Assembly (NCBI GenBank): GCA_016288815.1
Contig: JAEELF010000056.1
Location: 1-64,000 of the forward strand
From: Ruminococcus sp.
GTDB lineage: Bacteria > Bacillota > Clostridia > Oscillospirales > Ruminococcaceae
Length of the DNA stretch: 64,000 nt
Direction of reading: 5' to 3'
The notes under the pieces are model-generated. The model ran no database searches. It was not told where the DNA came from and saw only the letters and a program-made list of their open reading frames with translations. This document shows positions 55,664 to 64,000 of the stretch, piece by piece. A program made the position numbers and the translations under genes. The stretch's first letter is position 1, and the number at the start of each line of letters is the position of its first letter.

Positions 55664-56434
55664 TTACCAGCCTTGCTCCATGAGCCAGTTGTTGAGGGCG
55701 CGCTCACGGTCACGGAGCTCGTTCTCAGCACCGCTAAAATGTCCCAGTTCCTTCTCGCCCACTACGCCGCCGTCAACAAGATACAGCACCCGGCTGCACT
55801 TCGCCGCTACCTTGGGGTCGTGCGTTACGCACATCACTGTCGTGCCGTCTGCGTTGAGCTTCAGCAGCTCGCTGAGCACCTCGTCAGAGCTCGAGCGGTT
55901 GAGGGAGCCGGTCGGCTCGTCTGCGAAAAGTATCTTCGGGGAGTTTATCATGCTGCGGCAGATCGCCGCTCTCTGGAGCTGTCCGCCGGAGACCTCGTTG
56001 ATGTCGTTGCCGCCGACTTCTCCGATGCCAAGTCTGTGCATGAGCGCACGTCCGCGCTCCTCGGTCTTTTTGCGGCTCTCGCTGGTCTTCTTCGAGCGTA
56101 CTGCTGGGAGGATTATGTTGTCCAGCACCGTGAGGTTCTTCATCATGTACATCTGCTGGAATATGAAGCCCATTTCGTCCAGACGGAGCCTCGAGAGCTC
56201 CTTGTCGCGGAGCTTCGAGATGTCCTTGCCGCCGAAGAGCACCTCTCCGGCTGTTGCCCTGTCCATTCCCGATACGCAGTACAGGAGCGTGCTCTTGCCC
56301 GAGCCCGACGGTCCCATTACTGCTACCATTTCACCCTCGTTGATAGTGAGGTCGATGTTCTTCAGAACGTTGTTCTGTCTCTTGTTTATGATGTAAGTCT
56401 TGCAAAGGCCCTTTGCCTGTAATACTGCTGCCAT
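55664..56434 (-). CDS. ABC transporter ATP-binding protein (MacB/LolD-type)
   Basis: A 256-residue ATPase. Walker A is MGPSGSGKSTLLYCVSG, the Q-loop is GFIFQQMYMMKNLT, the signature is VSGGQLQRAA, Walker B is ILFADEPTGSLN, and the H-loop His is in VMCVTHDPKVAAKCS. It pairs with the FtsX-type permease 13 bp upstream. Such pairs export or detoxify peptides such as antimicrobials and lantibiotics, or sense cell-envelope stress. Confidence 0.92.
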   Translation of the reverse strand: MAAVLQAKGLCKTYIINKRQNNVLKNIDLTINEGEMVAVMGPSGSGKSTLLYCVSGMDRATAGEVLFGGKDISKLRDKELSRLRLDEMGFIFQQMYMMKNLTVLDNIILPAVRSKKTSESRKKTEERGRALMHRLGIGEVGGNDINEVSGGQLQRAAICRSMINSPKILFADEPTGSLNRSSSDEVLSELLKLNADGTTVMCVTHDPKVAAKCSRVLYLVDGGVVGEKELGHFSGAENELRDRERALNNWLMEQGW

Positions 56435-56447
56435 ATATTTATCCTCC

Positions 56448-58805
56448 TTATTCTATGCTTGCCGCGTCGGAAGCCTTTATCGTCTTTGTGTAGAGCGCTG
56501 TAAGGAACGCTCCGATGACTGCCGCACCGATAACTGCTATCGGGCATACTGCGAATATGTCTATGGGGGCGATCGAACACTTGACGCCCTGCACGTCGCC
56601 TATAATGCGGCATATCCAGTTCATCATCGCGTTGCCGACCGGCATCAGGAACGCCAGCGAGAGCAAGTACGCTATGAATGCTACGATCGCGAATCTCAGC
56701 GTGTGCTGACCGATTATGCTCTTATTGGATATGCCTATCGCCTTCATCAGCGCTATCTCGCCCTTTTCCTTTGAGATGAACGAGCGCTCCATGAGTATCA
56801 CTATCATAAGCGTTACGATGACCGTGAGCACTATTATCAGCAGCTTGATCGCTGTGAGCGTATCGGTCATGCCGGTCGCCCAGCCTATCAGTTCTTCGGT
56901 TCCGAATACCTTGTCGGTCTCGAGTATCGTTTTCAGCTCTTCGTTGTTCTTTTCGATCTCCTTGTCGCTCAGGTCGCCGTCATAGCGTATCTGTATGCCC
57001 ATGCTGCTGTTTGCCTTTTCGCTCCTGGCGTCGAACTCGCGGCTGACCCTTGCTACGTGACCGCCGTTCATGAACGATGAGAACTTGCCGGTGATTATGA
57101 ACTCATATTCCTTATCGTCAACGGTCATTGATACCGTATCGCCTATCTTGGCGTTAAGATCCTGCATTGCGTAGCCTGTGAGCGCTATCTCGTCCGCCTT
57201 TGCGGGGGCAGTGCCCTCATCGTAGCGGGTGGGTGCTTCGAGGCTGCCGTAGCTCGTTTCTATCATGACGGTCGCCTTGCTGGCACCGTGCTGCATATCC
57301 TTCACCATGCCTACCGTTATGCCGCACTTTCCGGGCATACCGTGCTCCGCAAGGGCCTTTTCGATATCATCTATCGTATCCTGCGCTTTGTTCTGATCCA
57401 TCATGAAATCGGCGATATATTCAACATCCAGAACGGTCGCGTCGCAGTCAACGATATCGAACAGCCACATTATATCTCTGCTCTTGAGCGTTACCGCAAA
57501 GGTGGACATAAGCATTATCATCAGCATACCGAGCGCGAGTATCACGGTGATTATGCTGAACTGTCTGGGTGCGCTCACGACGTCGTTCGCCGCCATGAAG
57601 CCCGTTGCCGGGAGCTTGGAGCGTCCGAGGTGCATGAGGCTCTTCTTGCGGAAGCGCTCGCCGGTCTGACCGTTTCTCACTGCGTCTACCGGGGAGAGCT
57701 TGCGTACCTTGCGTGTGCAGAAGTAGCAGAACATCACGATCAGGATAACCACTGCAACAGCACTGAGAAGTCCCATTATCACGCTGTGCTCATTGCCGAG
57801 GACCAGGTTCTCGGAGGCTGTGCGCAGCATCACATTGCTGAGCGGTATCGAGCAAAGGAAGCCTATCGCCGCTCCTACGACCGATATCGCGAAGTACTTC
57901 ACTATGTACAGGCTGCGTATGCTGCTGTTGCGTATGCCGACTGCCTTCATGACGCCGATCTCGCGGAATTCCTCGCTGATAGTGAACATTATCGTGAACC
58001 TGAGCACTACGAATGCCGTCAGCATGAGGACTATGCTCACCACCATCATGATGTAGGCGGTTATCATATCGTAGATGTAGACGGCTCTCATGTCGTCGCG
58101 GGGAGTAACGTCGATATTCGCATTCTCCTTAGCCATATCCTTCAGTGTCTGAAGGTCTGACGTGTTGAGGAAGAGAAGGGTGATCGGGAAGAAATCATTA
58201 TCGCCCGATGCCTTGTCGAGGGTATCGTAGTCCGTGCGGTCTACAAGCAGATGAGGCGAAGCACCGGATTCGGTGGATATTCCCGCCGCCTTGAAGCGTC
58301 CCGCGAACTTCAGTGTCACAACTGTATCATTGACCGTGACCTCGACCTCGTCGCCGTACTTCATATCGTTGTTCTCAAGGAACGGCGCTGTACACCAGAA
58401 CCAGCCGGGCTCAACGTCCTTGATGATGTTGTTGTTCGTGTCGAAGAAGTTGTATGCCATACTGTCGTCAGCCCAGAACAGCGCCGGGTTGATGAAGTTG
58501 TCGAGCTTTTTGCCGCCGACACTGAAGCTCTTCGACTTCGAGACCTCGACGAAATGTACTTCCTTTACGTCGCTGACCGAGGGGAGCGACTTTATCTCCT
58601 CCACTGCCTCGGGGGCGTCCGAGACTGTTATCTGCACGTCCTGTAATTCCGACAGCTCGAAGAAGTGGTCGATACCGCCTGTGACGGCAATGATGTTGTT
58701 GACGCTCGCTGCCGCGAACATCGAACACATTATCACGAACAGCAGTATGATGATGTTCATGGTCTTTTTTCTTTTCAGGTCTTTTTTAAGTATCCTTCGG
58801 AACAT
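56448..58805 (-). CDS. FtsX-type ABC transporter permease
   Basis: A 785-residue permease with an N-terminal membrane helix (NIIILLFVIMCSMFAAASV), a ~200-residue extracytoplasmic domain, a first FtsX block (~250-370), a second extracytoplasmic domain, and a second FtsX block near the C terminus (IKLLIIVLTVIVTLMIVILM at its start). This is the full-length layout of macrolide or peptide exporters. It is the first gene of a two-gene operon whose promoter has NTTAAG-like direct repeats. Confidence 0.9.
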   Translation of the reverse strand: MFRRILKKDLKRKKTMNIIILLFVIMCSMFAAASVNNIIAVTGGIDHFFELSELQDVQITVSDAPEAVEEIKSLPSVSDVKEVHFVEVSKSKSFSVGGKKLDNFINPALFWADDSMAYNFFDTNNNIIKDVEPGWFWCTAPFLENNDMKYGDEVEVTVNDTVVTLKFAGRFKAAGISTESGASPHLLVDRTDYDTLDKASGDNDFFPITLLFLNTSDLQTLKDMAKENANIDVTPRDDMRAVYIYDMITAYIMMVVSIVLMLTAFVVLRFTIMFTISEEFREIGVMKAVGIRNSSIRSLYIVKYFAISVVGAAIGFLCSIPLSNVMLRTASENLVLGNEHSVIMGLLSAVAVVILIVMFCYFCTRKVRKLSPVDAVRNGQTGERFRKKSLMHLGRSKLPATGFMAANDVVSAPRQFSIITVILALGMLMIMLMSTFAVTLKSRDIMWLFDIVDCDATVLDVEYIADFMMDQNKAQDTIDDIEKALAEHGMPGKCGITVGMVKDMQHGASKATVMIETSYGSLEAPTRYDEGTAPAKADEIALTGYAMQDLNAKIGDTVSMTVDDKEYEFIITGKFSSFMNGGHVARVSREFDARSEKANSSMGIQIRYDGDLSDKEIEKNNEELKTILETDKVFGTEELIGWATGMTDTLTAIKLLIIVLTVIVTLMIVILMERSFISKEKGEIALMKAIGISNKSIIGQHTLRFAIVAFIAYLLSLAFLMPVGNAMMNWICRIIGDVQGVKCSIAPIDIFAVCPIAVIGAAVIGAFLTALYTKTIKASDAASIE

Positions 58806-58953: not shown

Positions 58954-61131
58954 TTATCCCTCTATCTGCCGCGAAAGGAACTGCGCTGCGGCGTTGACCA
59001 GACTCTTTTGCAGGTCAGTCGCAGTGCTGCTTTTCTCCGAGCTCAGGAACGCCACCGCACCCGAAACGTCGCCTGCTGTGATTATCGGTACGGCGGCGGT
59101 CGCGGTACGGTCCACTCCCTCCGCCGGACAGAAGCTGTTCGTCGCGGCGTCCGGACAGAAGAACTGTCCCCTGCTCTCCATGAGCTCCTCAAGCTGTGCC
59201 GACACGCGGCGTTCCGCGAATTCCTTCTTAGGCACGCCGGCTGTCGCGACGACATGGTCCTTGTCGAACACCGCGACCGGACAGCCGGCTATCTTGTGCA
59301 TTATCTCCGCGACGTATGAGGCGTTTTCGCTCATCTCGCTTATCGCGGAGTACTTCTTGAATATGACCTCGCCCTCGCTGTTTGTGTATATCTCAAGGGG
59401 GTCGCCTTCACTGATAACATTGACACTGAGATTTTTGCCGGTACTTGTCGTAATTTCGGCAAATCGTGAAGCTGTTTCGGTTATCCCGGTGCCTTGCTTA
59501 AAATTTATGGCTGTCTCCTCGCAGACCTGCTCGGGCAGCGTTCCTGTTTTGAGTAGAGTATCTATGTCAGGTCTGAGCCTGATGTCGACGCGGTCTTCGT
59601 AGACCGTTATCCGCTCGATGATGAAGTCAACGTCGACCTTTGACAGCGTCCCCTTATTTATTATAGCGTCGAACACTTCCATTACCGTCCTGGCTGTGCG
59701 GTTGACGCTCACTATCATATTATGCTTGTCGGCGGCAAGCTGCATCTGATTACGAAGCCCTTCAAGCCGGAGAGTGAGCTCGTCTATCTGCTCGGTGTAT
59801 ATCTCCTCAAGCATCTCTTCACGCTCGGGGTGCCTTGCGATATCCTTGACGTGCTGACGTGCAAGCATTTTTATCTCGGTGCGGGTGTCCTCCATTTGCT
59901 GTTCGAGGACCTCGACTACGGACTTGCTTGATGAAGTCTCGCTGCGCTCCTTGTCGATAGACTCCTGCAACTGTTCGAGCATAGTCTCAGAGTTGTCCCG
60001 TACCTTTTCAACGAATGAGCGGAGCAGCCCGTCAAGCATATCAACACGGGTATGGTGTGAGGTACAGCCCTTGCTTCCACGCTTATGGTATGTTCCGCAG
60101 CGATAGGCTGGCGGTAGGTCGGGGCGGCTCATTGCGAACATCGGGCTTCCGCAGTCACCGCAGAAAAGATAGCCCGAATAGATGTTGTCGTACTTCTTCA
60201 CGCCGCGGTAGTTACTGTTCGTGCGCCGCTTCATCTGCTCCTGTACACTTACAAATAGCTTGTAGTCCACGATGGGAGTGTGGTTGTTCTCGAAGATGAG
60301 GTGGTCGGTCTCTTCGAGCTTCATATCAGAGCCGTTTATCTTCTTGCGGCGGTACTTGCCCTGCCTGAGCGTTCCGATATAGAAATCGTTGCGAAGAATA
60401 TCGCTGACCGTGACTATGCTCCACTCGCTCTTTCCGCGGAGCTTGCACTCCTCTCCTTTAGCCTCACGGCGCTCCTTTTCAGCCATGCGCGGCGTAGGGA
60501 TATGACGGTCGGTCAGGTGATTGGCAATGCGCTTGTAGCCCCAGCCCTCGCTGTAGAGCCTGAATATCTCCCTGACAACTTCCGCAGCTGGCTCATCGAC
60601 TTCAAACTGCATGAGCTTGCTGTTGATCATGATATAGCCATAGGGAACGGCACATATCCACTTGCCCTCCTCCTGACGGCGCTTGACTACTGAGCGGACT
60701 TTCTTAGAGGTGTCCGTAACAGGCATTTCGTTGATGAGGAAGCGAAACTGTATCGCCGTCCAGTCATCAAAGGTCGGGTAGTCGATGCTGTCGCCGATAG
60801 AGATTATACGCATTCCCGCATCTCGCAGATCTTCAAGCTCGACAAGTCCCTTACTGTTGCGTCGGCTGAAACGCGAGAAGTCCTTGATGATGAGGATATC
60901 GTATTCGTGCATGAGCATTTTCTTCCGCAGCTTCTGGTAGCCCTCGCGCTGCTCAAAAGTATAGCCGGAGCGGTCGCGGTCCTCGTAGAAGTCGAGCTCC
61001 GCTGTGGGGAAGGTCTTGCCGATATAATCGGCGATTATCGCTTTCTGGTTCTCGATGGAGGTATTGTCACGGTCAAGCTCCTCATCGACCGAGATTCGGC
61101 AATATCCTGCTATTCGCTGTCTGTTTTCCAT
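58954..61131 (-). CDS. Large serine recombinase fused in frame to the C-terminal part of SpoVT
   Basis: A 725-residue reading frame of two parts. Residues 1 to ~570 are a large serine recombinase: catalytic Ser14 in GYCRISVDEEL, DILIIKDFSRFSRRN, a recombinase domain (PYGYIMINSKLMQFEVDEPA), zinc ribbon (CGDCGSPMF, RCGTYHKRGSKGC) and coiled coil. From about residue 575 (EGDPLEIYTNSEGEVIFKKY) it is SpoVT: the second half of the AbrB domain plus the GAF domain, ending AAAQFLSRQIEG. SpoVT's first ~29 residues are absent. The simplest reading is integration of a recombinase-encoding element inside spoVT. The ATG follows GGAGGAGC. Confidence 0.9.
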   Translation of the reverse strand: MENRQRIAGYCRISVDEELDRDNTSIENQKAIIADYIGKTFPTAELDFYEDRDRSGYTFEQREGYQKLRKKMLMHEYDILIIKDFSRFSRRNSKGLVELEDLRDAGMRIISIGDSIDYPTFDDWTAIQFRFLINEMPVTDTSKKVRSVVKRRQEEGKWICAVPYGYIMINSKLMQFEVDEPAAEVVREIFRLYSEGWGYKRIANHLTDRHIPTPRMAEKERREAKGEECKLRGKSEWSIVTVSDILRNDFYIGTLRQGKYRRKKINGSDMKLEETDHLIFENNHTPIVDYKLFVSVQEQMKRRTNSNYRGVKKYDNIYSGYLFCGDCGSPMFAMSRPDLPPAYRCGTYHKRGSKGCTSHHTRVDMLDGLLRSFVEKVRDNSETMLEQLQESIDKERSETSSSKSVVEVLEQQMEDTRTEIKMLARQHVKDIARHPEREEMLEEIYTEQIDELTLRLEGLRNQMQLAADKHNMIVSVNRTARTVMEVFDAIINKGTLSKVDVDFIIERITVYEDRVDIRLRPDIDTLLKTGTLPEQVCEETAINFKQGTGITETASRFAEITTSTGKNLSVNVISEGDPLEIYTNSEGEVIFKKYSAISEMSENASYVAEIMHKIAGCPVAVFDKDHVVATAGVPKKEFAERRVSAQLEELMESRGQFFCPDAATNSFCPAEGVDRTATAAVPIITAGDVSGAVAFLSSEKSSTATDLQKSLVNAAAQFLSRQIEG
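59395..59425 (-). other. Probable attachment-site junction in spoVT
   Basis: Similarity to SpoVT begins at the EGD codons (59409-59401). On the higher-coordinate side the sequence is AT-richer and recombinase-like. The crossover core should lie within this stretch, but its exact bases cannot be fixed without the other end of the element. Confidence 0.5.
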
Positions 61132-61185
61132 AGTCAGCTCCTCCGTGTCAGTGTTGGTAATAAGCTATCCGATTCGATTATCATC

Positions 61186-61214
61186 ATTGTAACATACTGG
61201 TGCCCGCTTGTCAA
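61186..61214 (-). promoter_or_regulatory. Promoter of the recombinase gene
   Basis: Minus strand TTGACA (61209-61214), 17 bp, TACAAT (61186-61191). Confidence 0.75.
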
Positions 61215-61251
61215 GAAGAAAAAAGAGGTGCGCTTCACGCGCACCCCAGAT
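61215..61251 (-). terminator. Terminator overlapping the end of the 69-residue gene
   Basis: Minus strand GGTGCGC-gtga-GCGCACC followed by TCTTTTTTCTTC. The stop codon of the 69-residue gene lies in the loop. Confidence 0.75.
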
Positions 61252-61444
61252 TATGTTTGAGCAAGCTCTCCGTACAACTGAGCAGGTCGTCGCTGCCAGA
61301 CAGGAAGTACACGACCTTGCAATTTTTTGCGTCCACCTTTTTAAGGAGGCAGCGCGTCAGTTCCTTGCGGTCGTATAGCTGCTGTTCTGCGTTCGTCAGC
61401 CAGACCTCGATGTAGCCCTTGTCACGCTTGTCGTATATCTCCAA
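61235..61444 (-). CDS. Small conserved-looking mobile-element protein
   Basis: A 69-residue cytoplasmic protein (YIEVWLTNAEQQLYDRKELT and NCKVVYFLSGSDDLLSCTES are representative). It starts at TTG behind a G-rich ribosome binding site (AAAGGGGGCAGG). It lies between the DNA-transfer ATPase and the recombinase, the place where integrative elements often carry small accessory proteins. I do not recognise a named family. The terminator stem at its end supports it as a real transcription unit end. Confidence 0.55.
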   Translation of the reverse strand: MEIYDKRDKGYIEVWLTNAEQQLYDRKELTRCLLKKVDAKNCKVVYFLSGSDDLLSCTESLLKHNLGCA

Positions 61445-61510: not shown

Positions 61511-64000
61511 TTATGCGTGCTCATCATCGTCATAACTGCCCACATATGGTGGACGGTATGTCTCTCCGACGATAGCTGAGCCGAGCTGTATATTCTTCTT
61601 GTGGTAATCGCTATAAACTGCTCCCATGATAGCGCAGTGGAAATCCGGAAGAGTCCGGATAACGTTATCATCGAGCTTTGTGAGCTCAGAAACAGCTTTT
61701 GTGCACTCCTCGCCGAGAGGTCTGAAGAACACATGGGTTCCACAGTAGGCGTAGAAGCGACCAATGGGATCCTTAGCGTCAGTATAATCTTGCGAAGCAA
61801 GGATTGCTGACATATTCAGCTTTCTTCCACGGCTAAGTATTGCCTCAAGAGTGCAGCCTTGGTAGCGATTCAGAGTCTGGAACTCGTCCATTATTATAGT
61901 AACTTTTTCATCGCGATGAATATCCTTATAACTGTAGAGGGAGTCCAAGACTACATCGAAGGGGTTAGCATGTTCATTTGTGTTAGCATTACCGCTTGAA
62001 ATCACCAATATCTTTCCCCTATCAGAAAGGCGATCTGCCCAACAATAAGGTACATTACTTTGCATATTAACAGTGCTGAACAGTGCGGTCATCCTTGGAA
62101 TAATAGCTCGTTCGTCTGCGCTTTCGCTAAACGAAGACGTTAAGGGCAATAATTCCTGTGGGGTGTTGATCGGAGTTTTCTCAAGCCATTCTGCTACTTT
62201 ACTTGTGAGAATGGGCTTCTGCTTAAATCCTGTAAGGTGCATTCCAGATATCAGAAGGCTTGATAATCTCTGCGTCTTCTGCTCTATGTTAGTACAACCT
62301 TCGTAGTCTGGAATGTTAACTGGGAAACCGTCAGTCGACATATCCCAGAATTTAACGTACTCATTAATAATCTCATCTGGGATCATATGTGCAGACAATT
62401 CCTCTCTACAAAAGGCATTGGTGGGGTCGAGAATAACTACAACCTCTCCTGCCTTTGCTCTTTGAACTGCCTGCATCATACACCAGTCCGTCTTGCCTGA
62501 ACCGGGAGTACCAGTTACAGCAATAAACGGATTACCGTTTTTGTAATCAGTAATGACCTGCCCAGCATACATATCCAGTCGAGGATGCTTTATGAAAGGG
62601 GAGAAATGATCGAGATGCTTATCCGGCTTGTGGAACAGATCTGAAGCTACTGCCTCATCAACTATCCTGTTAGCCTCGGGAGTAAGTAAATCCCGCGAAA
62701 ACGAGTAGAATCGCCGCGGTCTCTTTACGCCGTCTTCAGTCTCGACAGTCCAGGTTTTCTGATCCTCTCCCTTGTTAGTGAAGAGGGAATCCTCGTCCTT
62801 TAGATATTGAAGTGCAGTATTCCGTCCTACTGGTATCTCAGGTAATATTTCGTCATCCCAAAAATCCTTTGTCACATTAAGCGACTCATCTCCTGCAACA
62901 AAAGCCTTATCAGGAGCCCAGAACGGAGGACCGTACTGTCTCGCTATCGAAAGTCTGCCGTTGCATATCTCATCGCTCAATGCTGTACCTACAGCTTTAC
63001 AAACACTGCGCTCCATTGAAGTCCTGGACTTAGCCTCGGTACTTAGCCACTGCAGCATAGCCTGCACATCAGCCTCAGTTAGAATACCGCCTTTTTTAAG
63101 CATAAGAGCGGTTGCAATAAACATTACTGCCGAACTGCTATGACTCCGCCTCGGAAGCGCCGTTACCTTTTCCTTTGCTTCGGTTGTCGCTTTTTTTAAG
63201 CGTTGCGCCATCGCATCAGGATTCCGTTCAGCGAACTTCACAATTTTGCAGTCAATCTCTCCAAGGATTCCCTGAATCTGCTCTATATCATCCAAATGAA
63301 GCCTGTCAGTGATAGATATCTGGTGAATCTGGAACTCCTCAGGTATGATCCCGGCATTATCGATAAATAAAGTAGGTATCAACCTGCCGTTGTCATTCTC
63401 TGAATATCCGTTTTGTATCAATTCATATAAATATTTTAATATTTTATTAAAATCGTACATTGAACAGATAGCACAAGAATGACGCATAACTGCAACACAA
63501 TCGACGTATTTCATCAACTCATCTTTTATATGCGGAAGCTGCATAGAAGAGAAGAGTACCTCCGTAGTACGATGATTCCTATTCTGCATTACAGCTACCA
63601 TAGCCTTTGCAGTTGCATTGTCGGAAGTTTCCACTACCCACAACCTATCCTGAACAAGACCCTCCGCCTTGTAGTGAGGAAGAAGGCGACTCGTTGCCGA
63701 AATCACTGTACCGATTTTTATCGGAAGCGCATCCGGGAGCAGGCTGTGGAATTCAGCTGCAACATCATCGAACTCGTGTTCAGCTCTCACTAAGGAAATA
63801 TCGCGAAAAATATTGTGCAGTTTGTTTTTATTGCACTCTTTCTTCTTATCCTCAGCGTCATCCTTCAGGAACAAGCCCTCGAATTCAGGTTTCATCATTG
63901 CCGAATCAACGAATATCAACGATCCATCCGGTTTTATATTCCATCCTGCATGTTGCGGGAGCGAGAGAAAGTAAACCGATTTACAGCTCCTCAAAGCACG
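61511..64000 (-). CDS. HerA/VirD4-like ATPase of a mobile element (5' end outside window)
   Basis: At least 827 residues; the frame stays open to the window edge, so the true start lies beyond it. The C-terminal half is a HerA/FtsK/VirD4-type ATPase: Walker A TGTPGSGKTDWCMMQ, Walker B KVTIIMDEFQTLN, and the following LSRGRKLNMSAILASQDY as in coupling proteins and conjugative ATPases. The N-terminal ~480 residues are not recognised. It probably drives DNA transfer of the element. Base composition is visibly AT-richer than in the genes left of 58.9 kb, consistent with transfer. Confidence 0.72.
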   Translation of the reverse strand, partial: RALRSCKSVYFLSLPQHAGWNIKPDGSLIFVDSAMMKPEFEGLFLKDDAEDKKKECNKNKLHNIFRDISLVRAEHEFDDVAAEFHSLLPDALPIKIGTVISATSRLLPHYKAEGLVQDRLWVVETSDNATAKAMVAVMQNRNHRTTEVLFSSMQLPHIKDELMKYVDCVAVMRHSCAICSMYDFNKILKYLYELIQNGYSENDNGRLIPTLFIDNAGIIPEEFQIHQISITDRLHLDDIEQIQGILGEIDCKIVKFAERNPDAMAQRLKKATTEAKEKVTALPRRSHSSSAVMFIATALMLKKGGILTEADVQAMLQWLSTEAKSRTSMERSVCKAVGTALSDEICNGRLSIARQYGPPFWAPDKAFVAGDESLNVTKDFWDDEILPEIPVGRNTALQYLKDEDSLFTNKGEDQKTWTVETEDGVKRPRRFYSFSRDLLTPEANRIVDEAVASDLFHKPDKHLDHFSPFIKHPRLDMYAGQVITDYKNGNPFIAVTGTPGSGKTDWCMMQAVQRAKAGEVVVILDPTNAFCREELSAHMIPDEIINEYVKFWDMSTDGFPVNIPDYEGCTNIEQKTQRLSSLLISGMHLTGFKQKPILTSKVAEWLEKTPINTPQELLPLTSSFSESADERAIIPRMTALFSTVNMQSNVPYCWADRLSDRGKILVISSGNANTNEHANPFDVVLDSLYSYKDIHRDEKVTIIMDEFQTLNRYQGCTLEAILSRGRKLNMSAILASQDYTDAKDPIGRFYAYCGTHVFFRPLGEECTKAVSELTKLDDNVIRTLPDFHCAIMGAVYSDYHKKNIQLGSAIVGETYRPPYVGSYDDDEHA

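Follow-up and report, generated by a model that had tools for sequence, protein, structure and literature searches.

How does the gene of a large serine recombinase come to continue, in one open frame, into the body of a sporulation gene? The question is raised by a 64-kb stretch of contig JAEELF010000056.1 from the Ruminococcus sp. assembly GCA_016288815.1 (the window, to which all positions refer unless a contig is named), where a recombinase frame runs on into spoVT. A sequence-only reading of the window had proposed that an element interrupts spoVT and that its excision might be developmentally controlled. In our assessment the locus very probably holds a mobile island that was inserted by its own large serine recombinase at SpoVT codons 31-32, fusing the recombinase to the SpoVT_C domain, and that would be reversible and would block sporulation while integrated. 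In what follows, G000 is the source genome, C1 the window contig and C31 the contig with the other element end.

A recombinase frame that continues into SpoVT

The features on which the argument turns are the following:
58954-61131, reverse strand: fusion open reading frame (ORF) of 725 aa, large serine recombinase plus C-terminal part of SpoVT (ORF list and profile matches)
59407-61131, reverse strand: recombinase part, residues 1-575 (domains and predicted structure)
58954-59406, reverse strand: 3′ part of the host spoVT, SpoVT Gly31 to Gly180 and the stop codon, with the SpoVT_C sensor domain of GAF type (profile matches and junction alignment)

The ORF call and the Pfam and TIGR02851 matches bear out that one frame at 58954-61131 encodes a complete serine recombinase (residues 1-575) and then SpoVT from Gly31 (residues 576-725, equivalent to SpoVT residues 31-180), and that the recombinase carries a GAF-type domain while the element is integrated, both as the sequence-only reading had it. 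The VISEGDPLEI junction it singled out is real, as is the truncation; its figure of about 29 missing residues becomes about 30, the host part starting at about Gly31. Resolvase (7-158), Recombinase (182-303) and Zn_ribbon_recom (318-368) matches follow one another in the order of large serine recombinases, each above its Pfam gathering score, and lead through a long helical region and a C-terminal segment ending in the left arm of the element's attachment site (attP) to SpoVT_C (599-724). Positions 27-180 of TIGR02851 (spore_V_T) align to residues 573-724 with 119.2 bits against a cut-off of 235.9, a shortfall expected of a truncated copy; as none of 125 congeners reaches the cut-off, intact spoVT copies included, it carries little information in this genus. 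The predicted structure (mean pLDDT, the predicted local distance difference test, 59.9) suggests a folded sensor domain placed after a stretch of very low confidence (residues 529-602). A staphylococcal cassette chromosome (SCC) of the Ccr type was ruled out, with scores of 120.4 of 900 bits for CcrB, 73.2 of 900 for CcrC and 62.5 of 700 for CcrA.

The missing half of spoVT and the empty site

The 5′ end of spoVT had been expected at the far end of the element, in the same orientation and near a shared core, and it lies there on C31. Positions 1758-1856 of that contig (reverse strand) encode TIGR02851 positions 1-33, that is, the missing first 33 spoVT codons, after which the sequence passes the core GGCGACCCC into element DNA and meets an in-frame stop 31 codons past residue 33. 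The G000 assembly (2.33 Mb, 69 contigs, 95% complete) yielded no intact spoVT in a TIGR02851 search, only two partial matches in a split-gene pattern; a third match (E 0.156) falls in an unrelated 745-aa protein. The case that the sequence-only reading had named against itself, an intact spoVT elsewhere together with no 5′ part, is thus not what the assembly holds. The element is incomplete in the assembly, with 8.0 kb on C1 and 1.8 kb on C31, and a glycoside-hydrolase-like gene (named by eye) lies upstream of the C31 piece. The left end of the element on C31 also encodes a secreted-looking 340-aa protein with a dockerin-like C-terminus by eye (L004, 456-1478).

Uninterrupted spoVT was to be sought in relatives, and an empty site is present in G047, the nearest relative in a SpoVT_C tree, where spoVT is whole and both G000 halves form one contiguous locus. 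The G047 contig aligns to C31 over 1607 bp (93.2%) and to C1 over 572 bp (91.6%), with 27 bp at the core covered by both alignments; on the C1 side the similarity ends about 107 bp past spoVT, at an ABC permease of G000. Rejoining the G000 halves in silico at this precise junction rebuilds the frame of a 180-aa SpoVT. The element lies inside spoVT, as identified by TIGR02851 in both halves, a gene whose role in sporulation is taken from Clostridioides difficile.

Attachment sites

Two features define the junction in the window:
59398-59406, reverse strand: core GGCGACCCC, common to both element ends, with the predicted crossover dinucleotide GA at 59403-59402 (junction comparison)
59407-59427, reverse strand: attP left arm AGTGTCAATGTTATCAGTGAA, kept at the junction inside the recombinase coding sequence, with its partner arm at the C31 end (junction comparison)

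A shared core had been predicted near 59401-59425; the core is there, its exact span overlapping only the start of that interval. The attP forms an imperfect palindrome about the GA of GGC-GA-CCC, at codons Gly31-Asp32. When the reconstructed attP of 21 genomes with both element ends (22 were found, G098 being left out at a contig edge) is folded between the G and the A, a mean of 13.4 of 17 arm positions are complementary (range 10-16), against 4.1 for other axes and 5.8 for the host site, attB. A palindromic attP around a central dinucleotide, combined with a less symmetric attB, is what is expected of a large serine recombinase. The 5′ piece of G060, compared with its intact copy, agrees with a change from host to element DNA at this GA.

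At one locus (L150) the recombinase continues beyond the core into the 5′ part of spoVT, read from the opposite strand, which may reflect joining of the wrong half, given the outer symmetry of the core (GGG...CCC), or misassembly.

Two C-termini of one recombinase

The attP lies inside the recombinase coding sequence and in the reading frame of spoVT, and the attL side encodes a conserved tail resembling SLTxExxFCxAMxxIAERLH. Across 29 tails (G007, G093, G098, both G101 rows and one G104 row left out), the proportions of synonymous (pS) and nonsynonymous (pN) differences in codons past the attP arm are 0.73 and 0.36 in frame, compared with 0.46/0.43 and 0.36/0.46 in the other two frames. Within the arm they are 0.33/0.41, pS not exceeding pN, as expected if the DNA site itself is constrained. 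Because the attL tail looks coding and the attP at the recombinase 3′ end shares the spoVT frame, integration would trade the native recombinase tail, some 23-36 aa past the core and left at the attL end, for the SpoVT sensor domain.

A bolder extension is that the C-terminus senses integration itself, the fused isoform with SpoVT_C being licensed to excise and reading SpoVT's late-sporulation or germination cue, the native tail favouring reintegration. Engineered integrase fusions to a recombination directionality factor (RDF), of which the fused isoform would be a natural counterpart, are described as favouring attL x attR over attP x attB (PMC5737554). We regard this extension as speculative and improbable; were it true, forespore fate would be governed by a DNA switch that reads a signal, resets itself and has spread horizontally across Clostridia.

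Distribution of interrupted spoVT

In a genus set of 125 genomes (TIGR02851 match threshold 1e-5), 106 carry a match: 71 whole, 33 with the 3′ part only, one with the 5′ part only (G097) and one cut by a contig end (G108). Among the 33 interrupted genomes, 22 hold complete in-frame fusions (23 counting G007); contig ends truncate 7 others, and in 4 the frame is broken. The spoVT 5′ piece is found in 24 of the 33, and in 19 of the 20 that are at least 90% complete (the exception is G045). Beyond the genus, a genome scan confirmed 250 recombinase relatives, of which 80 were kept, some from the same genomes as the genus set. SpoVT_C lies directly downstream in 74 of them, in one open frame in 71, a fusion frame beyond chance even though, given shared ancestry, the 71 are not independent events; it is absent from that position in L113, L120, L143, L150, L157 and L159. 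Hosts include R. flavefaciens, R. albus, R. bicirculans, Anaerotruncus, Anaerotignum, Lachnospiraceae, Eubacterium and Candidatus Borkfalkia.

A TIGR02851 search of 22 named genomes found 19 with the 3′ part only, of which 17 (counted by eye) also have a short 5′ piece of at most 42 positions; no such piece was found by this search in G132 and G138. We take the remaining 5′ matches, about 50-68 positions long, for AbrB paralogues. In 10 of the 17 the 5′ piece is on the same contig as the 3′ part, about 12-57 kb off. The sequence-only reading would have been undermined by many genomes with the fusion and no element; apart from G045, G132 and G138, the near-complete and named genomes with the 3′ part only carry a separate 5′ piece instead.

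With G000 in 69 contigs and its element ends on separate ones, an assembly or binning artefact might be suspected. The same split structure stands on single contigs of isolates, one a complete chromosome (R. bicirculans 80/3, R. albus KH2T6, R. flavefaciens ATCC 19208 and 007c, and Anaerotruncus massiliensis), which leaves that explanation a negligible probability. An island also splits spoVT in R. flavefaciens FD-1.

Several loci depart from the common arrangement. In G139 (L120) and G140 (L143) family recombinases do not run into SpoVT_C and spoVT is intact elsewhere in the genome; secondary integration sites are possible. In G129, contig C107 (L159/L188) has an intact spoVT, a 5′ piece about 50 kb away and, about 2.8 kb upstream of the gene, a family recombinase whose tail is cut short by a stop codon, possibly a tandem copy or remnant no longer interrupting spoVT. 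The spoVT 3′ part and 5′ piece of G137:C2 (L173 region) lie about 24 kb apart on opposite strands, so that the element or its surroundings may be partly inverted.

Mobility and cargo

Over 253 pairs of 23 fusions, amino-acid-changing distances of the recombinase and of SpoVT_C are uncorrelated (Spearman rho -0.12), and recombinase pS is below that of SpoVT_C in 157 pairs; between G044 and G073 it is 0.047, against 0.678 for the adjoining SpoVT_C. On the SpoVT_C tree, which is weakly supported and places 22 of the 71 intact genomes beside the 33 interrupted ones (stars on 11 of 52 inner branches, which alone force 11 changes), interrupted and intact species are interleaved and the interrupted state requires 18 changes, against a shuffled mean of 17.6. 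Vertical, skin-like inheritance as the main mode is not supported by the rho of -0.12 and a number of state changes like that in shuffles.

Twelve single-contig elements (8.0-54.3 kb) were compared using ORFs of at least 55 aa, those with masked bases left out. All 12 have the recombinase, 9 have a small upstream ORF, and the spoVT 5′ piece appears among the listed ORFs of 6; every other family is confined to 3 elements or fewer. Ten cargo proteins from three elements, scanned against Pfam, comprise three relaxases, MobC, three type I restriction-modification subunits, a GmrSD nuclease, a Fic protein and a dockerin protein, and no phage structural family was found among them. The relaxase genes are in the R. 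albus, A. massiliensis and G145 elements, MobC in that of R. albus; in the incomplete G000 element the transfer-type match is limited to weak coupling-protein similarity. In plasmid (213 records) and phage (329 records) collections, every match is below 60% identity. Two unannotated faecal 'phage' scaffolds match at 53-56%, L210 being itself a SpoVT fusion and L209 ending just short of the junction. Viral contigs hold 19 relatives. Three of the four closest continue into SpoVT_C, the fourth stopping at the core, and the other 15 have at most 34% identity.

With recombinases that cross species, differing cargo, and filled and empty sites in one assembly, the compared sequences indicate that the element family is mobile and that its gain and loss between species are rapid. 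A fixed, domesticated recombinase-GAF fusion that no longer excises would account for a frame conserved over wide divergence; we consider it very unlikely beside frequent empty sites, horizontal spread, palindromic sites and a conserved native tail.

An ordinary parasitic or cargo island, using a conserved gene as landing site, knocking out sporulation in hosts that rarely need it and excising for transfer only, is a strong contender that falls little short of an even chance. The relaxase genes of three elements and the MobC of one speak for it, as do varied cargo, horizontal spread and patchy distribution. Such an island leaves the largely conserved shared reading frame unexplained, and the scars and kept sporulation genes described below suggest selection for spoVT, so that knocking it out would not be free.

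Probable scars beside intact spoVT

An extra 5′ piece accompanies the intact spoVT of eight genomes. Upstream and 5′ sequence common to the piece and the intact gene spans 139-1134 bp at 78-100% in G122, G099, G068, G104 and G060, and 185 bp at 86% in G033. No complete recombinase was found in the stretches examined at these scars (a partial contig for G060 and G033), G099 having a 97-residue N-terminal remnant. These scars appear to be repaired insertions, which would imply that cells no longer able to excise the element are selected for a functional spoVT. Mixed populations were rejected for G060, where the shared flank is short, and G033, where it is diverged, both being read as scars or duplications. 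Several degenerate spoVT 5′ pieces lie away from the intact gene in G104:C22 and G101:C26 (L095, L094, L081), perhaps a record of past insertions.

Promoters and sporulation context

Upstream of the recombinase start are two elements of possible regulatory meaning:
61186-61214, reverse strand: sigma-A-like promoter of the recombinase, TTGACA-N17-TACAAT, 11 of 12 consensus matches (promoter scan)
61144-61156, reverse strand: half-site CAACACTGACACG in the recombinase leader, resembling an attP arm (CAYTGW near the start)

The scan covered 77 loci, leaving out 21 named loci taken as repeats of the genus set and those with less than 160 nt upstream. A sigma-A-like score of at least 10 of 12 occurs in 52% of the loci, against 6% in shuffles; in G001, G007, G008 and others of the genus set the score is just 8-9. 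CAYTGW lies within 45 nt of the recombinase start in 34 of the 77 loci (33 of 76 besides the window), where shuffles expect 2.2, and the recombinase may thus repress its own expression through the leader half-site.

Upstream of spoVT, 5′ pieces and intact genes alike carry a sequence like GaATA-N-AaATAcTA (consensus of 59 upstream regions, some genomes counted twice), which we take to resemble sigma-F/G promoters. Spo0A_C is found in 44 of 44 chosen genomes (20 interrupted, 24 intact) and SpoIVA in 43, being missing in G064 and split in G096; R. flavefaciens strains with a split spoVT keep Spo0A and SpoIVA. In G096 SpoIVA matches as two overlapping pieces and the fusion frame is shifted too, which points to sequencing errors or decay. 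In C. difficile, spoVT is described as controlled by sigma-F and sigma-G, and a spoVT mutant as giving no clones after heat treatment (PMC3789822).

These observations bear on the proposal of the sequence-only reading, a programmed, sporulation-timed excision that rebuilds spoVT, as for skin, SPbeta, gin and yin. Consistent with it are two intact spoVT halves, the sigma-F/G-like promoter kept on 5′ pieces and the retention of Spo0A and SpoIVA; a constitutive recombinase with a sporulation-controlled RDF is moreover reported for SPbeta and skinCd (PMC5595907). The ratio of nonsynonymous to synonymous rates (dN/dS) of SpoVT_C is similar too, with medians of 0.043 in 7 interrupted pairs, 0.040 in 2 intact and 0.037 in 16 mixed, although with so few pairs, and insertions that may be too young under the high turnover between species, we reject it as proof of function while interrupted. 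Since spoVT belongs to the forespore programme in C. difficile, and its promoter here looks sigma-F/G-like, excision in the compartment that requires SpoVT would strip the germ line, and with it the spore, of the element unless reintegration followed; if SpoVT acts in the forespore here, stable developmental use would need reinsertion, unlike skin, whose excision is described as confined to the terminal mother cell (PMC5025042). Programmed excision is therefore unlikely in our view. Of the likeness to elements in sigK, spoVFB or spsM, a serine-recombinase element in a sporulation gene stands; the skin analogy does not hold in the face of a forespore spoVT, horizontal mobility and a sigma-A-like recombinase promoter in about half of the loci, G000 included.

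Somewhat less likely again is a switch of the active-lysogeny type, in which excision permits sporulation and the circle travels with the cell, to be put back afterwards by the native-tail recombinase. A pair of recombinase C-termini, one for each state, would suit it, as would the reinsertion that a forespore target requires for stability, and the literature on intervening elements offers comK in Listeria as precedent (PMC5025042); no circle maintenance function was identified.

Proposed mechanism and points against it

In the arrangement that we favour, a mobile island reversibly integrated in spoVT, the recombinase would insert the island at a fixed attB over SpoVT codons 31-32, splitting the gene, which would keep its promoter, 33 codons and a foreign tail. 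The integrated cell would lack working SpoVT and, by analogy with C. difficile, would form no finished heat-resistant spores, so that sporulation would be locked until the island leaves, whether incidentally or by design. Precise exchange at the two GA cores would yield the 180-aa spoVT and a circle with the native recombinase, and would restore the option of sporulation. We infer that excision is reversible in living cells, its direction being set by a separate factor, possibly the small upstream ORF, and/or by the swapped C-terminus. The structure of the locus, its sites, the empty allele, the mobility of the family and the reading frames are, for their part, directly legible in the assemblies.

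Several observations weigh against this interpretation. All of the evidence comes from genome assemblies, and the function of SpoVT in Ruminococcus is carried over from C. difficile. The G000 element ends lie on separate contigs with the middle missing, and an exact-pattern search shows the attP junction in only 1 of 125 genomes (G094, at a contig end; a circle or a tandem). No 5′ piece was detected in 9 of the 33 interrupted genomes (8 of them less than 90% complete), and the fusion frame is broken in 4 of the 33 (G061, G074, G096, G098) and in 3 of 74 named loci (L139, L140, L155). In G137 the 5′ piece and the 3′ part lie on opposite strands, which a simple insertion would not produce. Recombinase pS can also exceed that of SpoVT_C (G007/G064, 0.528 vs 0.271). 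G007 itself has an empty spoVT (C9) and contigs ending in attL (C5) and attR (C6), with flanks of 95 and 158 bp that are 100% identical; such identity marks a mixed population, which may be a strain mixture rather than excision.

Other features of the window

The remaining features belong to the element or to its chromosomal flank:
61235-61444, reverse strand: small ORF of 69 aa, of the family common to 9 of the 12 compared elements; candidate directionality factor (ORF and element comparison)
61511-64000, continuing past the window to about C1:64642, reverse strand: element gene for an ATPase with weak similarity to coupling proteins (TraD/TrwB-like) (profile matches)
56448-58805, reverse strand: FtsX-type ABC permease, chromosomal flank downstream of spoVT and outside the element (ORF and profile matches)

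ABC permease and ATPase genes occupy 55664-58805 beside spoVT, and look-alikes (by eye) occur inside the G008 element and the G068 scar; they may be cargo of a past element left at the spoVT site.

Significance and comparison with known systems

If SpoVT works as in C. difficile, a split spoVT would be a direct and testable cause of any failure of well-studied rumen and gut strains to sporulate; the arrangement is seen in many gut bacteria and could switch sporulation off and on. The shared frame gives the enzyme a C-terminus that would report the integration state, a testable idea on direction control in serine integrases, and attB, being conserved and lying in a gene of wide occurrence, might serve as a landing site when anaerobes that are hard to engineer are to be modified. 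Title and abstract searches found no paper on an element in spoVT among the matches listed; the regulated gene integrity candidates of Mageeney et al. 2020 may include one. To the known intervening elements of sporulation genes, the spoVT island adds a new variant.

One close likeness is gin, in gerE of Bacillus cereus ATCC 10987, described as a non-phage element with a serine recombinase, a 9-bp core in the coding sequence of a spore regulator, an inverted repeat at the site and a predicted central dinucleotide, its excision needing a companion factor, GirX (PMC5595907). It differs in that gerE is a mother-cell regulator, in that excision was shown experimentally and in that gin is known from Bacillus cereus-group strains; unlike the spoVT element, it is not linked to any recombinase-target protein fusion in the abstract or Discussion of that report (PMC5595907). 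The skin elements in sigK (C. difficile, B. subtilis), SPbeta in spsM and yin in yabG likewise lie in sporulation genes whose frame precise excision rebuilds, through a recombinase and an RDF, putative for yin (PMC5025042, PMC10747680, PMC4191935). By these accounts they are prophages or prophage-like (such content is listed for yin, not for gin), whereas the spoVT elements are cargo islands in a probably forespore gene; excision of skinCd and SPbeta was observed and tied to the mother cell (PMC5025042, PMC10747680), the spoVT element being known from assemblies alone.

The change of C-terminus has other parallels. In the integration-dependent immunity of mycobacteriophage BPs, attP also lies within an element gene and integration alters the C-terminus and behaviour of its product, though the repressor is shortened there and the recombinase here gains a host sensor domain (PMC4557955). 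Engineered integrase-RDF fusions likewise add a partner to a serine integrase, which shifts it to attL x attR, but they are man-made and use the cognate RDF (PMC5737554). Helper-embedded phage-inducible chromosomal islands (HE-PICIs) have an integrase clade that is reported to enter coding genes repeatedly without restoring them, with 14 calls of integrase-target gene fusions that needed curation (PMC10111431); they target prophage late genes and fuse to an upstream late-gene fragment, whereas the spoVT islands enter a spore gene of the host and are as a rule fused to it.

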